Source of the DNA: Natrarchaeobaculum sulfurireducens | GTDB lineage: Archaea > Halobacteriota > Halobacteria > Halobacteriales > Natrialbaceae | Assembly: GCF_003430825.1 (NCBI RefSeq) | Contig: NZ_CP024047.1 | Location: 2,976,001 to 3,040,000 of the forward strand | Length of the DNA: 64,000 nt | Direction: 5' to 3' | Shown here: positions 3,758 to 9,811 of the stretch, in pieces | Layout: each line of letters begins with the position of its first letter | How positions within the stretch are numbered: position 1 is the stretch's first letter | Program-made: the position numbers and the translations under genes | Notes under the pieces: model-generated | The model's input: the letters and a program-made list of their open reading frames with translations, nothing else | What the model was told of the DNA's origin: nothing | Databases searched by the model: none

Positions 3758-4010
3758 GAGCCACTGACCGTCAGTGCGCACCCAATTGCACGAGGACTGT
3801 GTGATCGATGTGGGGAACCGTTTCAGTTGTTAGGGTCTGTTAAACCCCTCAGAACATAATAAGAGTTTACTGCTGCATACAGAGCATGAGTTCAGTACGA
3901 CGATCCAGTTTGTTTCACGCCGAAAGCGGCGAACCACCCGCTCACTACACGTGTATACTGAACGCCCTCACTGAATAACTAAGTACAGACTGATCAACCT
4001 CCCGAAAGCA
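3758..4010. other. Left border of the accessory island, no gene
   Basis: The gap after the acyl-CoA synthetase has no supported gene. Base composition becomes AT-richer from about 3780. It contains a truncated copy (A) of the island repeat at 3880-3966, followed by an AT-rich promoter region. Confidence 0.6.
3880..3966 (+). repeat. Island repeat, copy A (right part only)
   Basis: This matches the right part of copy B (4660-4746) at roughly four of five bases, including the shared blocks TTTGTTTCA, CCGAAAGC and CGCTCACTACACGTG. The left half, with the highly conserved core found in the other copies, is missing. It has the same orientation as the other copies. Confidence 0.7.
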
Positions 4011-4018
4011 TTTATTAA
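4011..4018 (+). promoter_or_regulatory. TATA box of the first island lipoprotein gene
   Basis: TTTATTAA lies 20-27 bp before the ATG at 4038, the spacing expected for a leaderless haloarchaeal transcript. Confidence 0.55.
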
Positions 4019-4037
4019 GTGGCTATAGCTCCTAGGT

Positions 4038-4514
4038 ATGAAACGAAGATCATTCCTTTATTTGATTGGAGCAACATCGCCCGGTCTCGCTGGCTGTCTC
4101 GGCGACGATTCTGAGGAAAACGGCGACGGCGAGTCTAGCGATAGTGGCGATTCAAAGGAAGACGGCAACAACGAGTCCGACAACAGCGACAACGACGATG
4201 TATCGTTGGGTTCCTTCGAGCATGTGTCTAGACCAAAATTAGAGAACTGCGAAAAAACATACCTTGAGGATTACGTGGTCGAGGAGGGAAATGCAGGGAC
4301 CATATCATTTGAAATCACTTCTGTCGAGGAACACGATAGTGGGACAGCGAAGGTAGGGATTGAATCGGAGATAGAAGTTTCTGGTCACGGTGATGATGTA
4401 GTCTGGCACGAATATCACGATACTCGGGCGTACTACTACGTAACTGAGTCAGACACTTATCGAACGGAGAACTCAACCGAAAAACCAGAGAACGGTGTGC
4501 AAATTGACTGTTGA
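4038..4514 (+). CDS. Small secreted lipoprotein of unknown function
   Basis: The 158-residue product begins MKRRSFLYLIGATSPGLAGC: a twin-arginine signal (KRRSF) and a lipobox with Cys20 as the predicted lipid anchor, so it should be exported by Tat and tethered to the outer face of the membrane. Residues 22-55 are an Asp/Glu/Ser/Asn-rich low-complexity linker. The rest is a small folded part ending in Cys. I recognise no family. It has its own TATA box and sits between island repeat copies A and B. Base composition is lower in GC than the core genes, which suggests accessory DNA. Confidence 0.75.
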   Translation: MKRRSFLYLIGATSPGLAGCLGDDSEENGDGESSDSGDSKEDGNNESDNSDNDDVSLGSFEHVSRPKLENCEKTYLEDYVVEEGNAGTISFEITSVEEHDSGTAKVGIESEIEVSGHGDDVVWHEYHDTRAYYYVTESDTYRTENSTEKPENGVQIDC

Positions 4515-4582
4515 TTAGTGCTACCGGAACCTGGTTTACTAGTACTGACCGATCACTCTCGTTGCAGATCGGGCCAGATTTC

Positions 4583-4746
4583 GTGCCACATTCGCGCTGT
4601 GAGTTCAGCAGGTACTGAACGAGCTACCCGGCCTCTGTCAGAAGCGACGTGACCGACTCAGGGCATTAGTGCAGCACGATGACTCCGTTTGTTTCATACC
4701 GAAAGCAGTGAACCGCCCCGCTCACTACACGTGCGTATTGACTGCT
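4583..4746 (+). repeat. Island repeat, copy B (most complete)
   Basis: This is the longest copy, about 164 bp. The core at 4587-4610 is identical over 24 bp to cores in copies C, D and E; it contains TTCGCGCTGTGAGTTCAGCA. The middle has GTGACCGACTCAGGGCAT, and the right end (TTTGTTTCAT ... CGCTCACTACACGTG) matches copy A. It lies between the stop of the first lipoprotein gene and the next gene. No single frame stays open across the different copies, so it is probably not coding. Confidence 0.8.
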
Positions 4747-4812
4747 AGCGGTTCTGGCAATTCTGATCTCCCGTTTGAAAGAGTTTTAACACTTCGATCA
4801 TTTTGTTTGGAT

Positions 4813-5208
4813 ATGCTGCCTGCCCTCCACTCACGTAGCATTTCTCAGGTATGGCAGGTCGCAATATCCGGTATGCTGGTCGCACTACCTGTCAGTGTTA
4901 TTCTCGGCTGGGTGCTGGGATTCGAAACGGACGGATTGATTACAGTAATCGGTGCAGTCATTGCAGGAGGGATCGCAGTTACTCGGTCGGTTAACCCGAG
5001 CGCCGCTGGACTCCGCACCGGGCTTCTCGGTGCTAGTCTCGGAATTTTGTTCTCCCTTCCCGACGTACTGATGATTGGTACGGAGTCAGCAGGCGCTATA
5101 CCTGTGTTTATTTACACTAGTGGATTCGCGCTGGTCGTCATGTCCATGTTGGGGTGGGTCTTTGGTCGTCTTGGCGGGTGGGTAACGAATACGTTGAGTA
5201 CACGCTGA
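4813..5208 (+). CDS. Small multi-pass membrane protein (DUF5518-like)
   Basis: The product from the ATG at 4813 has 131 residues. It shows about four hydrophobic segments (residues about 12-32, 37-55, 65-85 and 95-120) rich in Gly, Ala, Val and Leu. The pattern, with Gly-rich paired helices and an RTGLLGAS-type turn, resembles the haloarchaeal DUF5518 membrane family, whose function is unknown; this match is from memory. An upstream in-frame ATG at 4669 lies inside repeat B and is rejected. A TATA-like GTTTTAA occurs about 30 bp before 4813. It sits between repeat copies B and C. Confidence 0.65.
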   Translation: MLPALHSRSISQVWQVAISGMLVALPVSVILGWVLGFETDGLITVIGAVIAGGIAVTRSVNPSAAGLRTGLLGASLGILFSLPDVLMIGTESAGAIPVFIYTSGFALVVMSMLGWVFGRLGGWVTNTLSTR

Positions 5209-5253
5209 CCCGTACTTAGCGAACACTCATCCTCGCAGATCGACGCTGAGTCT

Positions 5254-5340
5254 GTGCCACATTCGCGCTGTGAGTTCAGCACGGATTGTTCGAATTGCTT
5301 GGTTTCTGCCAGTAGTGGCCTGACCGACTCAGAGGGTGGA
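5254..5340 (+). repeat. Island repeat, copy C (left part)
   Basis: The core at 5258-5281 is identical to copies B, D and E. Similarity continues through TGACCGACTCAG and then stops near 5340, before the 3' end of the next gene at 5431. The right half seen in copies A and B is absent. Confidence 0.75.
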
Positions 5341-5430
5341 TCCAACTTCATCAACAGAGGACGGGTCGACACCAGTGGAGATGATGTGCCAGTCGGTGCG
5401 GAGAGGGTGTCCGGGATCCCTCCGGTTGAG

Positions 5431-6588
5431 TTAGCCTTCCGGATACCCCCACCATCCGCCGGTCCCGGCGATGCAGATGCCAACGGGCTTCGAATAAGAC
5501 ATATTGTCAAGGTCGTTATCGGAGTTCAGTTCCACCTCGTCGGCGTGATCGTCTTCCTCGCGGAAGGAGAGGTACCACTCCTCCTGTTCGGGGTCGACGC
5601 TGATCGACTCCTCTAGCGTTTCGCCGTCGTCTTTCTCCAGCGAGAGATCGTACTCGCCGAACGTCTCGACGAGATCGAACGACTCGAACTTCTCCGAGTC
5701 CACGTAGTCAACCGGGCCGTTGACTTCCTCGTCTTCTGGCGGCTCGAGAACGAACTCCTCGTCGAGAATCGTCGTCTCCTCGTCGGCGACCACGACGGAG
5801 ACCTCGAACGGGTCGTCACGACCGTTGATCACGTGGAGTCTCGCGGGCGAGGAGTGGCCGTCCTCGACCTTCTCGAACTCGAGTGTCGACGCGTCGCCGT
5901 CGCGCTCCACGGTGGTCTCGTAGTACTCGTCGTTCTTCCAGAGCGTCGCGTCTTCGGAAACGGCCTTCGGGTACAGCAGCGTTTTGTCGGTTTCGTACGT
6001 CCCCTCCTCGAGTGCCAGATCGACCTCCCATCGGACGGGATCGGGAAGGCGGTGGTACGGCGCGTAGTCGGTGACACACACCACTGGGTTCATCCACTCG
6101 TCGACGACCGACTCGGGCGGGTCGTCGGCTCCGCGCACCTCGACCAATCCGATTATCCCGGTGAATTCGTTCCAATCGTGGGCGAGGTCGTAGTGGATGT
6201 CGAACCGAAGGCCGTCGTTCCGTTGTCTGATAGCGTCGACGGTCACGTCGCGCACTGTACCGGGGAAGCCTCCTCTGGAGGCGACCACGTAAGCATCGTC
6301 GAAGTCGACCGGTTCGACGAACGCGGCTACGTCCTCGTGGCCCCCGAGTTGGTCGTCTACCACGTCCATGTCGTCGATGATGATGGCCTCGCCGCCATCG
6401 GTGTTCGGCGCGTCATCATCATCGTCGTACTCGAGGTAATCGTAGACTGCGGTCACTCCATCCGGTACGTGTTCCACGTCCTGCAGGGAGCGTCCATCGT
6501 CATCGGTTCGTTGTACGGTGTCCGCACATCCTGCGAGGGCGGCGGTCGTGGTGGTGCCGAGAGAGGCGAGGATGGCTCGTCGCTTCAT
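5431..6588 (-). CDS. Secreted lipoprotein of unknown function
   Basis: A 385-residue protein starting MKRRAILASLGTTTTAALAGC: Tat signal and lipobox with Cys21, so a predicted lipid-anchored extracellular protein. It is very acidic. The mature part is predicted to be rich in beta strands, with Asp runs near residues 50-65 and 170 and a Trp/Gly-rich C-terminal tail (GGWWGYPEG). I do not recognise a domain. GC content is closer to the core genome than that of its neighbours, so it may have joined the island separately. It is opposite in strand to the first two island genes and lies between repeat copies C and D. Confidence 0.75.
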   Translation of the reverse strand: MKRRAILASLGTTTTAALAGCADTVQRTDDDGRSLQDVEHVPDGVTAVYDYLEYDDDDDAPNTDGGEAIIIDDMDVVDDQLGGHEDVAAFVEPVDFDDAYVVASRGGFPGTVRDVTVDAIRQRNDGLRFDIHYDLAHDWNEFTGIIGLVEVRGADDPPESVVDEWMNPVVCVTDYAPYHRLPDPVRWEVDLALEEGTYETDKTLLYPKAVSEDATLWKNDEYYETTVERDGDASTLEFEKVEDGHSSPARLHVINGRDDPFEVSVVVADEETTILDEEFVLEPPEDEEVNGPVDYVDSEKFESFDLVETFGEYDLSLEKDDGETLEESISVDPEQEEWYLSFREEDDHADEVELNSDNDLDNMSYSKPVGICIAGTGGWWGYPEG

Positions 6589-6943
6589 ACCTTGGAGAAC
6601 CTACACGCCCGGTAAGTGTTTTGGGGTCGTTCAGTTGTAGAATCAGTAGAGGAATTTCGGTTCGAATCAACCATAGGCGGCTCGGTGATGGTTACCACTT
6701 CGTATGTCACATTCGCGCTGTGAGTTCAGCACGCCTCGCTCAATCTATTCAGTAGCTGGCAGAAAGTGCGTGCAACATCCAGAGCATGGATGCAGACAGT
6801 GAGACCCTTTGTTTCGCGTTCAATTCCCTGAACCGGCCGATCAGTACACTTGCATAATCGGCGCTGGTGGGTTCTCAAGACTAAGTACTGTTCAGATACC
6901 CATATTCGGGCAGATAGTGGAGCTGATCAATGCCGTCTGGTTA
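6589..6943. other. 355-bp gap holding repeat copy D
   Basis: Between two minus-strand lipoprotein genes. The left part contains the promoter of the 5431-6588 gene; the remainder is repeat copy D and a tail containing CTAAGTACTG, a block also seen near copies A and E. No gene is supported. Confidence 0.6.
6704..6866 (+). repeat. Island repeat, copy D (full length, diverged)
   Basis: The core at 6708-6731 is identical to copies B, C and E. The middle and right parts are recognisable but diverged (CAGAGCATGGATGCAGACAG, CCTTTGTTTCG, CTGAACCGGCC). Same orientation and about the same length as copy B. Confidence 0.7.
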
Positions 6944-7672
6944 TCACATTGGACGGACCTCGCCATCATCAGTCCATTCACAATATAGCGGGCTCGAGTG
7001 TTCCTGACCTTCTCGGAAAAGGGACTGTTCATCGAACGAGATATCTGAGTGATGGCTTGATTCGTTCACTCTCCACGACATATCATCCTCCAATTCTAAC
7101 TCCTCGATTTTGACCTCGGCGTAATAGCTTCCAAAGCGGTACTGATCGTCGTCACCAAGTGGGACGGCTTCGCTTGCCTCGATCTCCACGGATTCATCAA
7201 CGAGAACATCGCCATCAAGTTCGATCCGCACATTTGCCGTCACGTCCTTATCCGCGTAGTTTTGTAACGTTAGTGGTTGGGTTTGGGGACGTATTTCCTC
7301 CATTAGCAGGCGCATCTCATCGCCATCGTGTTCAGTGATACCACTGTAATAGGTTGGCCCGTCGATGAAGACCGCTGTAAAGATGTTGACTACTTCGGAA
7401 AGGAGTAGCCTGTCATCGATTTCATACTCGCCGTCTTCGATCGCACGTCGTGCCTCTTCTTCAGCGGGATCTGGCAAGGCAGAAATATGTACGAACCTGG
7501 CGTCACAACGCTCGTATTCTATATCGTCACTGTTTTCATCCGCACTTTCATCATCATCGGCACTGCTATTATCCTCACTCTGTTCGCCGTTCACATTATC
7601 AGAACCACTTAAACAGCCTGCAGTGAGGACTGTCGTAATAGAGGCTGCAGCGAGTAAGTCACGTCGTTTCAC
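6944..7672 (-). CDS. Secreted lipoprotein of unknown function
   Basis: A 242-residue protein with a Tat signal (MKRRDLL) and a lipobox TAGC with Cys20. An acidic, Ser-rich linker (about residues 24-52) is followed by a mature domain ending in a Cys-containing tail. No family recognised. The start is GTG at 7672, chosen because the signal peptide begins there and a TATA box (7693-7701) lies 21-29 bp upstream, again a leaderless arrangement. It lies between repeat copies D and E. Codon use is AT-richer than in the flanking core genes. Confidence 0.75.
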   Translation of the reverse strand: MKRRDLLAAASITTVLTAGCLSGSDNVNGEQSEDNSSADDDESADENSDDIEYERCDARFVHISALPDPAEEEARRAIEDGEYEIDDRLLLSEVVNIFTAVFIDGPTYYSGITEHDGDEMRLLMEEIRPQTQPLTLQNYADKDVTANVRIELDGDVLVDESVEIEASEAVPLGDDDQYRFGSYYAEVKIEELELEDDMSWRVNESSHHSDISFDEQSLFREGQEHSSPLYCEWTDDGEVRPM

Positions 7673-7692
7673 ACCCAGAATATCTAATCAGG

Positions 7693-7701
7693 TAATAAAT
7701 A
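7693..7701 (-). promoter_or_regulatory. TATA box of the 6944-7672 lipoprotein gene
   Basis: On the minus strand it reads TATTTATTA, 21-29 bp before the GTG start at 7672, fitting a leaderless haloarchaeal promoter. Confidence 0.55.
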
Positions 7702-7817
7702 CTTTCTGCTTATCAAAAACAGCAGTTGGAGAAACCCATCTGAGATGTGGACCGAACTAAGTGCTGTTTTCCACCTGTTCCGACCGATCACCAACTTCGC
7801 TAACCAAGTCAGTACTC

Positions 7818-7930
7818 GTGCCACATTCGCGCTGTGAGTTCAGCACGGATTCTTCGAACTACTCAGCTTTTGTCAGGAGTTGCGTGACCGACTTAGGGGA
7901 TGGGTGCAGCACACAGACACCGTTCGTTTC
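7818..7930 (+). repeat. Island repeat, copy E
   Basis: The core at 7822-7845 is identical to copies B, C and D. Similarity continues through TGCGTGACCGACTTAGGG and ACACCGTTCGTTTCT and stops at the 3' end of the next minus-strand gene, whose stop codon begins at 7930. The last third of the repeat is missing, as if the gene were joined at that point. Confidence 0.75.
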
Positions 7931-8124
7931 TACCTCTTCTGGTTATGTAAAACGAGGATATGAAGAGCTACAACAGCTGCCCCAGTCGTAACTACGGATA
8001 ACTCTGAGGTTGGATTGTCAATGTGCTTCTGGCCTAATTCGGTGAGTCCAAGCATCCAAGTAGTAAGTACCAAACCAAAAGCCGAGTACCCAAACAGTAT
8101 TAGTGCTCTGTATCGGTCGATCAT
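7930..8124 (-). CDS. Small two-helix membrane protein, unknown
   Basis: A 64-residue product with two hydrophobic segments, about residues 8-26 and 44-60, separated by a short polar loop. It begins MIDRYRALILFGY and ends in HNQKR. A TATA-like AAATTATTT is about 30 bp upstream on the minus strand (8151-8159), supporting expression. No family recognised. The stop codon abuts repeat copy E. It is AT-rich like the rest of the island. Confidence 0.55.
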   Translation of the reverse strand: MIDRYRALILFGYSAFGLVLTTWMLGLTELGQKHIDNPTSELSVVTTGAAVVALHILVLHNQKR

Positions 8125-8266
8125 ATCTTCTGTTCATAGCTATCGGACTAAATAATTTCTGACAGAAGAACATATCCTATAGCTAAGTTTTCACTTGCGT
8201 TGATTGATTTCTTCCCTTCACATATCACTCTCCGTTTTGTGCCGCATTTGCACTTTATGTTCACCT
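8125..8266. other. Gap with degenerate repeat copy F
   Basis: No gene. It holds the promoter of the small membrane protein and, at 8239-8265, a degenerate copy F of the repeat core (GTGCCGCATTTGCAC ... GTTCA). Similarity stops exactly where the left inverted repeat of the insertion sequence starts, so the element may have inserted into or beside a repeat. Confidence 0.45.
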
Positions 8267-8449
8267 ATGGAAATTCTGCTGACTGACCAAACCACGTTTG
8301 CCAAGATAATTCTTCGGGCGACAAGGACTTCCTATAGTTTTCTGGCGTAGAATCGACAACCGGCGAACCGATAGCTACTGAAACAGCCATCAGGCGGGGG
8401 ACTTCTTGTTTGCGAGGGCAGTTGCTCACGCTGCCACCAGCCGGCCAAT

Positions 8450-8471
8450 GAGCGCCGCCCTGGCGGCGCTC
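8450..8471 (-). terminator. Hairpin overlapping the transposase stop codon
   Basis: Ten-base arms GAGCGCCGCC (8450-8459) and GGCGGCGCTC (8462-8471) are separated by two bases. The stop codon at 8470-8472 is inside the stem. It may stop transcription or protect the message; there is no T-run. Confidence 0.45.
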
Positions 8472-9468
8472 AGGCACTCACCCCTGGTGGATCGTACACC
8501 TCCTCACGGTCCAGCATATGATACATTGAAACCAGCAGCTTCCGGGCGGTTGCGACAATCGCTGTTTTCGAGTTCTTCTTTCGAGCTAACCGGTTGTAGA
8601 ACTGGCTGAGGTACTCGTCTTCGCACGTATGTACTGCTGAGTACGACGCTTGAACGAGCAACCACCGGACTCGTCCTGATCCTCGCTTCGAGATGCTCCC
8701 CTCAAACCGCGAGTCGCCAGACTCGCGGATTATCGGGTTTAACCCGACGTAACTCACGACCTCTTTGGCCCGATCAAACCGATTGATCTCTCCCAACTCT
8801 GCATAAATCGTCAACGCCGTAAAGTAACTCACGCCAGGAATCGTCATCAGGAGCTGGGTCTCCTTCAGAGACCCAGCCCGCTCCTCGATCTCCACTTCCA
8901 ACGACTCAATCTGTTCAGTGAGTGTCTGAATGAGCTCCAGATACGACTCCAACAACGCGTCCCACGGGGCCGGGAGCGAGAGTTCCGCCAGGAACTCTCG
9001 TCCCTCCACACTCAACGGCTTTACCTCCCGAGTGATGCCATGATCACTCAACAAGCCGTGAATCTTGTTTGCGTACTCGGTCCGGTTCTCGACGAGTTTC
9101 TGTCGCCCGCGCACAAGTGCGCGGGCTTGCCGAACCTCGTCGGTTGGAACGTAGCTTTCAGGAACCGAGCCTAACCGAAGCATTCGAGCGAGTTGTTTCG
9201 CGTCAACGCGGTCAGTTTTCTTGTCAGAGTCGGAGATCAACTTCAATTCGCCGGGATTGGCGACGGTCACATCCAGATACGCTGAAAGCGTATCGTGGAT
9301 GTGATAGTAGTTGCTGGTCGCTTCAAGCGCGGCTTTTGACCCAGCGTACCGCTGGGCAAAGTCGTCGAGGTTCGCGTTTTCGACGCGAACCTCTTCGACG
9401 ATCTCACCGTTTTTGTCCAGTACTGCGATCTGTGAGTACCGCTTGTGTACGTCGATTCCAATGAACAT
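8470..9468 (-). CDS. IS110-family transposase (DEDD recombinase)
   Basis: A 332-residue recombinase that moves its element by cutting and rejoining DNA. The N-terminal RuvC-like DEDD domain shows Asp6 (FIGIDVHK), Glu49 (ALEATSNYY), Asp86 and Asp89 (TDRVDAKQLARM). The C-terminal transposase_20 domain spans about 205-285 with IPGVSYFTAL and SISKRGSGRVRW, the latter holding the catalytic serine candidate. A coiled segment at 170-200 links them. All key residues are present and the frame is intact, so it looks active. The ATG at 9468 is chosen over an in-frame ATG at 9510 because family members begin at the FIGIDVHK strand. Confidence 0.9.
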   Translation of the reverse strand: MFIGIDVHKRYSQIAVLDKNGEIVEEVRVENANLDDFAQRYAGSKAALEATSNYYHIHDTLSAYLDVTVANPGELKLISDSDKKTDRVDAKQLARMLRLGSVPESYVPTDEVRQARALVRGRQKLVENRTEYANKIHGLLSDHGITREVKPLSVEGREFLAELSLPAPWDALLESYLELIQTLTEQIESLEVEIEERAGSLKETQLLMTIPGVSYFTALTIYAELGEINRFDRAKEVVSYVGLNPIIRESGDSRFEGSISKRGSGRVRWLLVQASYSAVHTCEDEYLSQFYNRLARKKNSKTAIVATARKLLVSMYHMLDREEVYDPPGVSA

Positions 9469-9686
9469 TGGACTCACCTTGGAACGCTGGTGCGTGAAAC
9501 AGAGATTCACCTATGCGGGCTTTCCCGACTGCCGCCAAGAGCGGCAGTCGGGCTGTCATGCCCAGGACTCGGCTTCCTACGCACTCGGACCAGTCAGCAC
9601 CACGTGTTCTCAGACACGGAATACAGCTCGGTCTCTTGCGTCCCATACTTGTTTCACGCTCTCATGGGATATAGCAGAATTTCCAT
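9469..9686 (-). ncRNA. Candidate bridge RNA region of the insertion sequence
   Basis: The 218 bases upstream of the transposase, inside the right inverted repeat, are non-coding. They carry a perfect hairpin with 12-base arms (CCCGACTGCCGC at 9524-9535 and its complement at 9541-9552, loop of 5). Characterised IS110 elements encode a structured RNA in this end that pairs with donor and target DNA. The RNA here is inferred from position and structure; IS1111-type members may use the other end instead (8267-8469). Confidence 0.35.
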
Positions 9687-9811
9687 CGAGTCAGCACGAT
9701 CGCTAAAACCTATCACTTAGCAAGGTTTTCGGCAGAGCCAGGTGTTACTTATAACACGACCACTGCCGAGGAAACGAAGCTCTTCGACCGATCGCGACAA
9801 CGTGGCCCGGT

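Follow-up and report, generated by a model that had tools for sequence, protein, structure and literature searches.

The window analysed here, a stretch of 64,000 nucleotides from Natrarchaeobaculum sulfurireducens (contig NZ_CP024047.1, positions 2,976,001 to 3,040,000), carries near its beginning five gene cassettes that are separated by copies of one repeat. We consider these cassettes probably to form a multi-gene insertion-cassette array, which has no transposase of its own, is moved in trans by transposases of the IS5 family of insertion sequences (ISs) and exchanges its genes by recombination at the repeats. Single gene bodies are transferred between such arrays with precise borders, and the cargo turns over at one and the same insertion. 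An initial annotation of the window had proposed a mobile or recombination-driven array of surface-protein genes. Its idea of mobility is supported by our results, most directly by the gene turnover at the same locus; the view of the cargo had to be widened, as described below.

Transposon-type ends and the composition of the spacer

Inverted repeats at both ends, a duplicated target site and flanks that are collinear in a sister species (G003) define the stretch from 3833 to 9739 as one element. The starts and ends of the arrays run on into the inverted repeat GGCTCTGTTGAAATCCTC; this pattern was found in 26 of 37 genomes, the reversed control pattern in none. The tip of the inverted repeat was present in 42% of the first and 50% of the last repeats of an array, compared with 1.8% of the 110 internal repeats. 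Ten of the 17 complete start-to-end elements were flanked by an 8-bp duplication (at least 7 of 8 bases matching), and mismatched controls gave none. Four duplication-flanked elements hold one or two internal spacers (L073, L131, L049, L040), and single-gene elements with target duplications were common. IS5-type inverted repeats together with an 8-bp target duplication show that the element entered its site by DDE transposition.

The same inverted repeat bounds autonomous ISs, which encode a DDE transposase of 273 amino acids (DDE_Tnp_1, PF01609). A protein of Natribaculum luteum annotated as an IS5 family transposase is 93% identical to it, and the IS that encodes this protein, which has an 8-bp duplication, directly adjoins an array end. 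The 8-bp duplication and the GGC ends are reminiscent of the ISH1 group of the IS5 family. Neither the window array nor most other arrays contain a cognate transposase; a few contain inserted IS copies. Relatives do have cognate transposases of the IS5 family. Movement would be brought about by transposase acting in trans, supplied by IS5-family copies with the same ends.

The repeats were scanned with an iterated profile of 214 positions. Its outer modules, a and b, take up 1-48 and 149-213, and between them lie the left arm (49-84), the centre (85-112) and the right arm (113-148). The complete spacer, termed J, is 205 bp long. It starts with module a and finishes with module b, and the inner portions of the element's right end and left end follow each other in this order between the two modules; the outer tips are lacking. 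The internal spacers may be fused element ends minus their tips, and since copies without tips should not be cut, the array would move as a single unit. At first sight the spacer looks like a palindrome, which could mean a folded site. However, the two arms of one site are no more complementary to each other than arms taken from different sites (0.448 and 0.458, respectively; not above shuffled arms). Thus the apparent palindrome is two transposon-end copies facing each other. A conserved fold of the repeat, for which the initial annotation had suggested to look, did not appear either: single-strand DNA folding of eight spacer copies was ordinary, with z-scores from +0.6 to -1.7. A structured RNA was rejected as well, as Rfam gave no plausible match in the region and no conservation of structure was seen.

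In the window, all six repeat copies of the initial annotation are present at or near the positions given there, and the identical core of copies B to E was borne out; a 23-bp pattern over this core occurred four times in the window and not at all in shuffled sequences. The outlines of several copies had to be redrawn (Table 1). Copy A is a right half-repeat, and its real start lies at the inverted repeat. Copies C and E had correctly been seen as truncated (both are without the right part), and copy D, which lacks the first approximately 48 positions, has to be added to them. Copy F is only the left part of the terminal half-repeat. Its remainder and the right inverted repeat lie beyond the range that had been considered. 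That the whole array is a transposon-type element with IS5-type ends could not be seen there because an inserted IS110-family element hides the right end.

This layout is a general one. Arrays recurrently begin with a right half-repeat (profile from about 83), continue with complete internal repeats and end with a left half-repeat (to about 97). That the repeats point in one direction and the genes in both, as had been noted for the window, holds for 411 repeats at 120 loci, where 223 neighbouring pairs lay on the same strand versus 16 on opposite strands, and for 204 cassettes, where the main open reading frame (ORF) was on the plus strand in 105 and on the minus strand in 95. Median cassette length is 660 bp, and the single main ORF covers about 75% of a cassette; the G+C content of the cassettes is 50% versus 59% for the loci, and 1 to 14 of them follow each other in a run. 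The 178 cassette proteins fall into 131 families, so that the same repeat does stand beside unrelated genes at other loci, as the initial annotation had expected for a mobile array. Surface proteins are not the only cargo: helix-turn-helix (HTH) and AsnC-type regulators, GNAT acetyltransferases, SnoaL, cupin and glyoxalase proteins, kinases and DUFs are common too.

A 221-bp repeat query matched 15 places in the same genome and 26 of 61 relatives. The 205-bp consensus was present in 92 of 111 sampled genomes of the family; at class level the count was 61 of 145. It is also carried by 59 plasmid records, of which the named ones are haloarchaeal and include pNMAG02 of Natrialba magadii. A viral origin was considered and dropped, as neither a phage collection, searched for the spacer, nor IMG/VR, searched for the exact core pattern, gave a match.

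Turnover of the cargo and exchange of gene bodies

The sister species G003 has the same insertion (L036). Its flanks align with those of the window at 89% and 83% up to the outer half-repeats, but nothing is alignable between these half-repeats, i.e. the cargo is entirely different. In another relative (G022) the flanking genes of the window locus are collinear and the element is absent. A further array of the N. sulfurireducens genome (L032) is absent from G003 and G020 with intact flanks; the boundaries of this empty site could not be aligned to the exact base. Hence the empty sites sought by the initial annotation exist.

Whole cassettes of different arrays and genomes match each other, and the matching copies never differ in their orientation to the repeats. 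Borders were mapped in about 12 homologous cassette pairs. In a pair from one genome (L042 and L044, 98% identity) the match takes in the right arm with module b on one side, the left arm with module a on the opposite side, and ends in the spacer centre. In most between-genome pairs the match ends sharply at the borders of the gene body, with modules a and b at background similarity, and bodies that are nearly identical are flanked on either side by a, b and J that are unrelated. Both body borders carry a strongly conserved direct repeat, GWACTGANC, which coincides with the match borders on both sides in several between-genome pairs. Among 67 complete spacers, left- and right-arm distances were uncorrelated (Mantel r = 0.03), and the right arm was linked to module b (r = 0.29). 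This fits a reassortment at the spacer centre, bearing in mind that the spacers are divergent and that part of the signal may be lost. The probable interpretation is that gene bodies are exchanged by recombination in trans between repeated J modules, for which host homologous recombination would be the most likely enzyme system and a dedicated recombinase the main alternative.

Several observations weigh against the combination of transposition in trans with recombination at the repeats. A recognisable inverted repeat is missing at about half of the array ends; in some of these its place is taken by inverted copies of module a or b. A search of 1.77 Mb of loci gave no fusion of two borders without a gene body (b directly joined to a), and no circular form was visible in the assemblies. 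At one locus shared by three Natribaculum species no single cassette was gained or lost; the array is conserved, so that exchange is slow there. Finally, the matches of several cassette pairs end exactly at the body border and not at scattered points within J, which is a greater precision than expected from plain homologous recombination.

Alternative explanations and comparison with known elements

Such precision could be due to a dedicated, putative site-specific recombinase that swaps the bodies at the bordering GWACTGANC, which would be an integron-like system with another enzyme. The conservation of this motif, its coincidence with the borders on both sides and the one fixed orientation of the cassettes would suit it. 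However, no recombinase and no other enzyme gene recurs beside the arrays: clustering of the surrounding ORFs yielded only inserted IS110 and DDE transposases as recurrent mobility genes, and tyrosine recombinases (PF00589) were found in 13 of 13 genomes searched, but in N. sulfurireducens none of them lies near its arrays. With the gene-less fusion also missing, we regard a dedicated recombinase as rather unlikely. The related notion that haloarchaea capture and exchange cassettes independently of integrons, the bodies being swapped at GWACTGANC by a putative new enzyme, is put forward only tentatively. Quite unlikely in our opinion is that the arrays are piled-up single-gene insertion cassettes which lost their internal tips, without any swapping of individual genes. 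Elements that hold one gene and have target duplications are indeed frequent, other mobile elements insert into the spacer arms too, and a gap-free fusion of an E end with an S end accounts for the composition of J. Against piling up stand near-identical bodies between unrelated a, b and J, identity that ends inside J in same-genome copies, and a conserved insertion at which all cargo differs.

A cluster of attC sites lacking an integrase (CALIN), i.e. an archaeal integron without integrase, would likewise consist of one-gene cassettes arrayed with a repeated inter-gene site, and the cargo is typical of integrons. This explanation is nevertheless highly improbable. Either attC motif (RYYYAAC or GTTRRRY) occurred in 5 of 163 sites, too few for these to qualify as attC, and the arm complementarity, the near-zero folding z-scores and the two gene directions also speak against it. 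No match to IntI (TIGR02249) was obtained in 61 genomes, but the control genomes gave none either. A plain local duplication of the repeat or a conserved operon, which the initial annotation had kept in view, has nothing in its favour beyond the local picture and is practically ruled out by hundreds of copies with different genes in many genomes. In summary of these points we maintain trans-mobilised arrays with recombination at the repeats as the probable explanation.

Integrons, which have also been described in archaea (PMC9668308), are the main form in which cassette arrays of unrelated accessory genes are known. Like integron arrays and CALINs, the haloarchaeal arrays have modular one-gene cassettes, a repeated inter-gene site, diverse accessory genes and turnover at a fixed locus. 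Unlike integrons they lie inside transposon ends, without a detected IntI, attC motifs or a conserved single-strand fold, and their genes are not arranged in one direction behind one promoter. A widespread haloarchaeal counterpart without integrase would mean that such arrays can also be built in another way, starting from DDE transposon ends.

A closer resemblance exists to mobile insertion cassettes (MICs). MIC231 of Bacillus cereus and the IS231-MIC231 modular elements (cited in PMC2266710) have passenger genes between IS ends, no transposase, presumed movement in trans and target duplication. Runs of as many as 14 cassettes, an internal 205-bp spacer without tips, the exchange of single bodies, IS5-type ends and the occurrence in haloarchaea set our arrays apart. 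The testable features of MICs, namely IS terminal inverted repeats around passenger genes, target-site duplication and no internal transposase, are all found in the arrays, which go beyond MICs in that many cassettes are lined up with a spacer between them and genes are exchanged. With autonomous IS5-family ISs the arrays share the terminal repeat and the 8-bp duplication, but they carry gene cargo in place of the DDE transposase. The palindrome-associated transposable elements (PATEs), SMRs and miniature inverted-repeat transposable elements (MITEs) of Haloquadratum are also transposase-less haloarchaeal elements, some of them palindromic, that are targeted by other mobile elements (PMC3119063). 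PATEs, however, are derived from IS605-type elements, too short to code and free of terminal inverted repeats and target duplications (PMC3119063), whereas the arrays have both and code for genes.

We found no description of these arrays in the literature; the search covered open papers, so their novelty is unproven. The arrays would provide a specific pathway for the intense exchange of genes that is seen in haloarchaea, and hundreds of short genes of no known function are marked by them as mobile cargo. As arrays are present on complete plasmids of cultured strains, such as pNMAG02, these proposals are directly testable.

Genes of the window array and further observations

The features of the window element are listed in Table 1. 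The DUF5518 match of cassette 2 scored 21.4 bits, below the 27-bit cut-off, and its ATG start was chosen within an ORF at 4669-5208. Some genomes have members of the lipoprotein family of cassette 4 inside repeat-flanked cassettes; in many others such members lie outside cassettes of this kind.

Table 1. Coordinates of the element and its parts in the window
Feature	Position	Strand	Basis or remark
Whole element, transposon-type gene cassette array	3833-9739	+	about 4.4 kb plus 1.4-kb IS110
Left target-site duplication AGTTGTTA	3825-3832		7 of 8 bases as in AGGTGTTA at 9740-9747
Left terminal inverted repeat GGGTCTGTTAAACCCCTC	3833-3850	+	alignable with family consensus GGCTCTGTTGAAATCCTC
Copy A, first half-repeat (S end and module b; profile 84-213)	3835-3964	+	profile match
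Cassette 1, 158-amino-acid lipoprotein	4038-4514	+	ORF with lipobox; no Pfam match
Copy B, full spacer J (profile 11-211)	4541-4742	+	profile match, 3e-55
Cassette 2, DUF5518-like membrane protein	4813-5208	+	weak Pfam DUF5518 match
Copy C, spacer without right part (profile 7-143)	5207-5344	+	profile match
Cassette 3, 385-amino-acid lipoprotein	5431-6588	-	ORF with lipobox; no Pfam match
Copy D, spacer without module a (profile 49-208)	6700-6858	+	profile match
Cassette 4, 242-amino-acid lipoprotein	6944-7672	-	no Pfam family
Copy E, spacer without right end (profile 4-167)	7769-7932	+	profile match
Cassette 5, 64-amino-acid predicted membrane protein	7930-8124	-	ORF only; no Pfam match
Copy F, left part of terminal half-repeat (E end), split by IS110	8239-8265	+	
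IS110-family IS inside E end	8260-9693 (ends approximate)	-	TGCTGAAT-type target
Remainder of E end and right terminal inverted repeat	9691-9739 (approximate)	+	
Right target-site duplication AGGTGTTA	9740-9747		

A few cargo proteins fit defence-type models (ThsB/TIR-like, ZorA-like, CARF regulators), with one or few occurrences each. Two arrays of the N. sulfurireducens genome, L028 (7199-8968) and L033 (7869-9638), share a near-identical 2-kb segment (97%) with a gene for 589 amino acids; one array is on contig C3 and the other on C2. One and the same short element was seen on contigs that had been assigned to Thermoplasmata and Rhodobacteraceae genomes of one sediment series (L079, L098), which is probably haloarchaeal DNA wrongly binned.

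In a second type of array end, the terminal inverted repeat is replaced by inverted a or b modules together with a conserved stretch of about 22 bp (GGTAACGGARCGAC); it was seen at the starts of L046, L047, L055, L059 and L061 and at the ends of L046, L056 and L059. We also observed elements with one gene or none that share the inverted repeats and 8-bp duplications of the arrays but have neither module a nor module b (L124 2944-4293, L130 2235-2839, L126, L127); some of them are in another haloarchaeal family. Elements of this kind are possible ancestors of the cassettes.

The IS110-family element of the window encodes a transposase (8470-9510) with Pfam matches to Transposase_20 and DEDD_Tnp_IS110. 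Its boundaries were set by comparison with the copies in L030 (4829-6267), L035 (4878-6315) and L122 (1642-3080). All four copies have the TGCTGAAT-type target, which is the conserved spacer arm in three of them. This is reminiscent of IS1111-group elements, which target integron attC sites. Another IS of about 1.08 kb, with ends GGGTCTTGTTTAGA, is inserted at an identical position of the left arm in three arrays from two genomes (L042 7612-8687, L137 7970-9055, L136 16256-17353). The spacer arms look like insertion hot spots.

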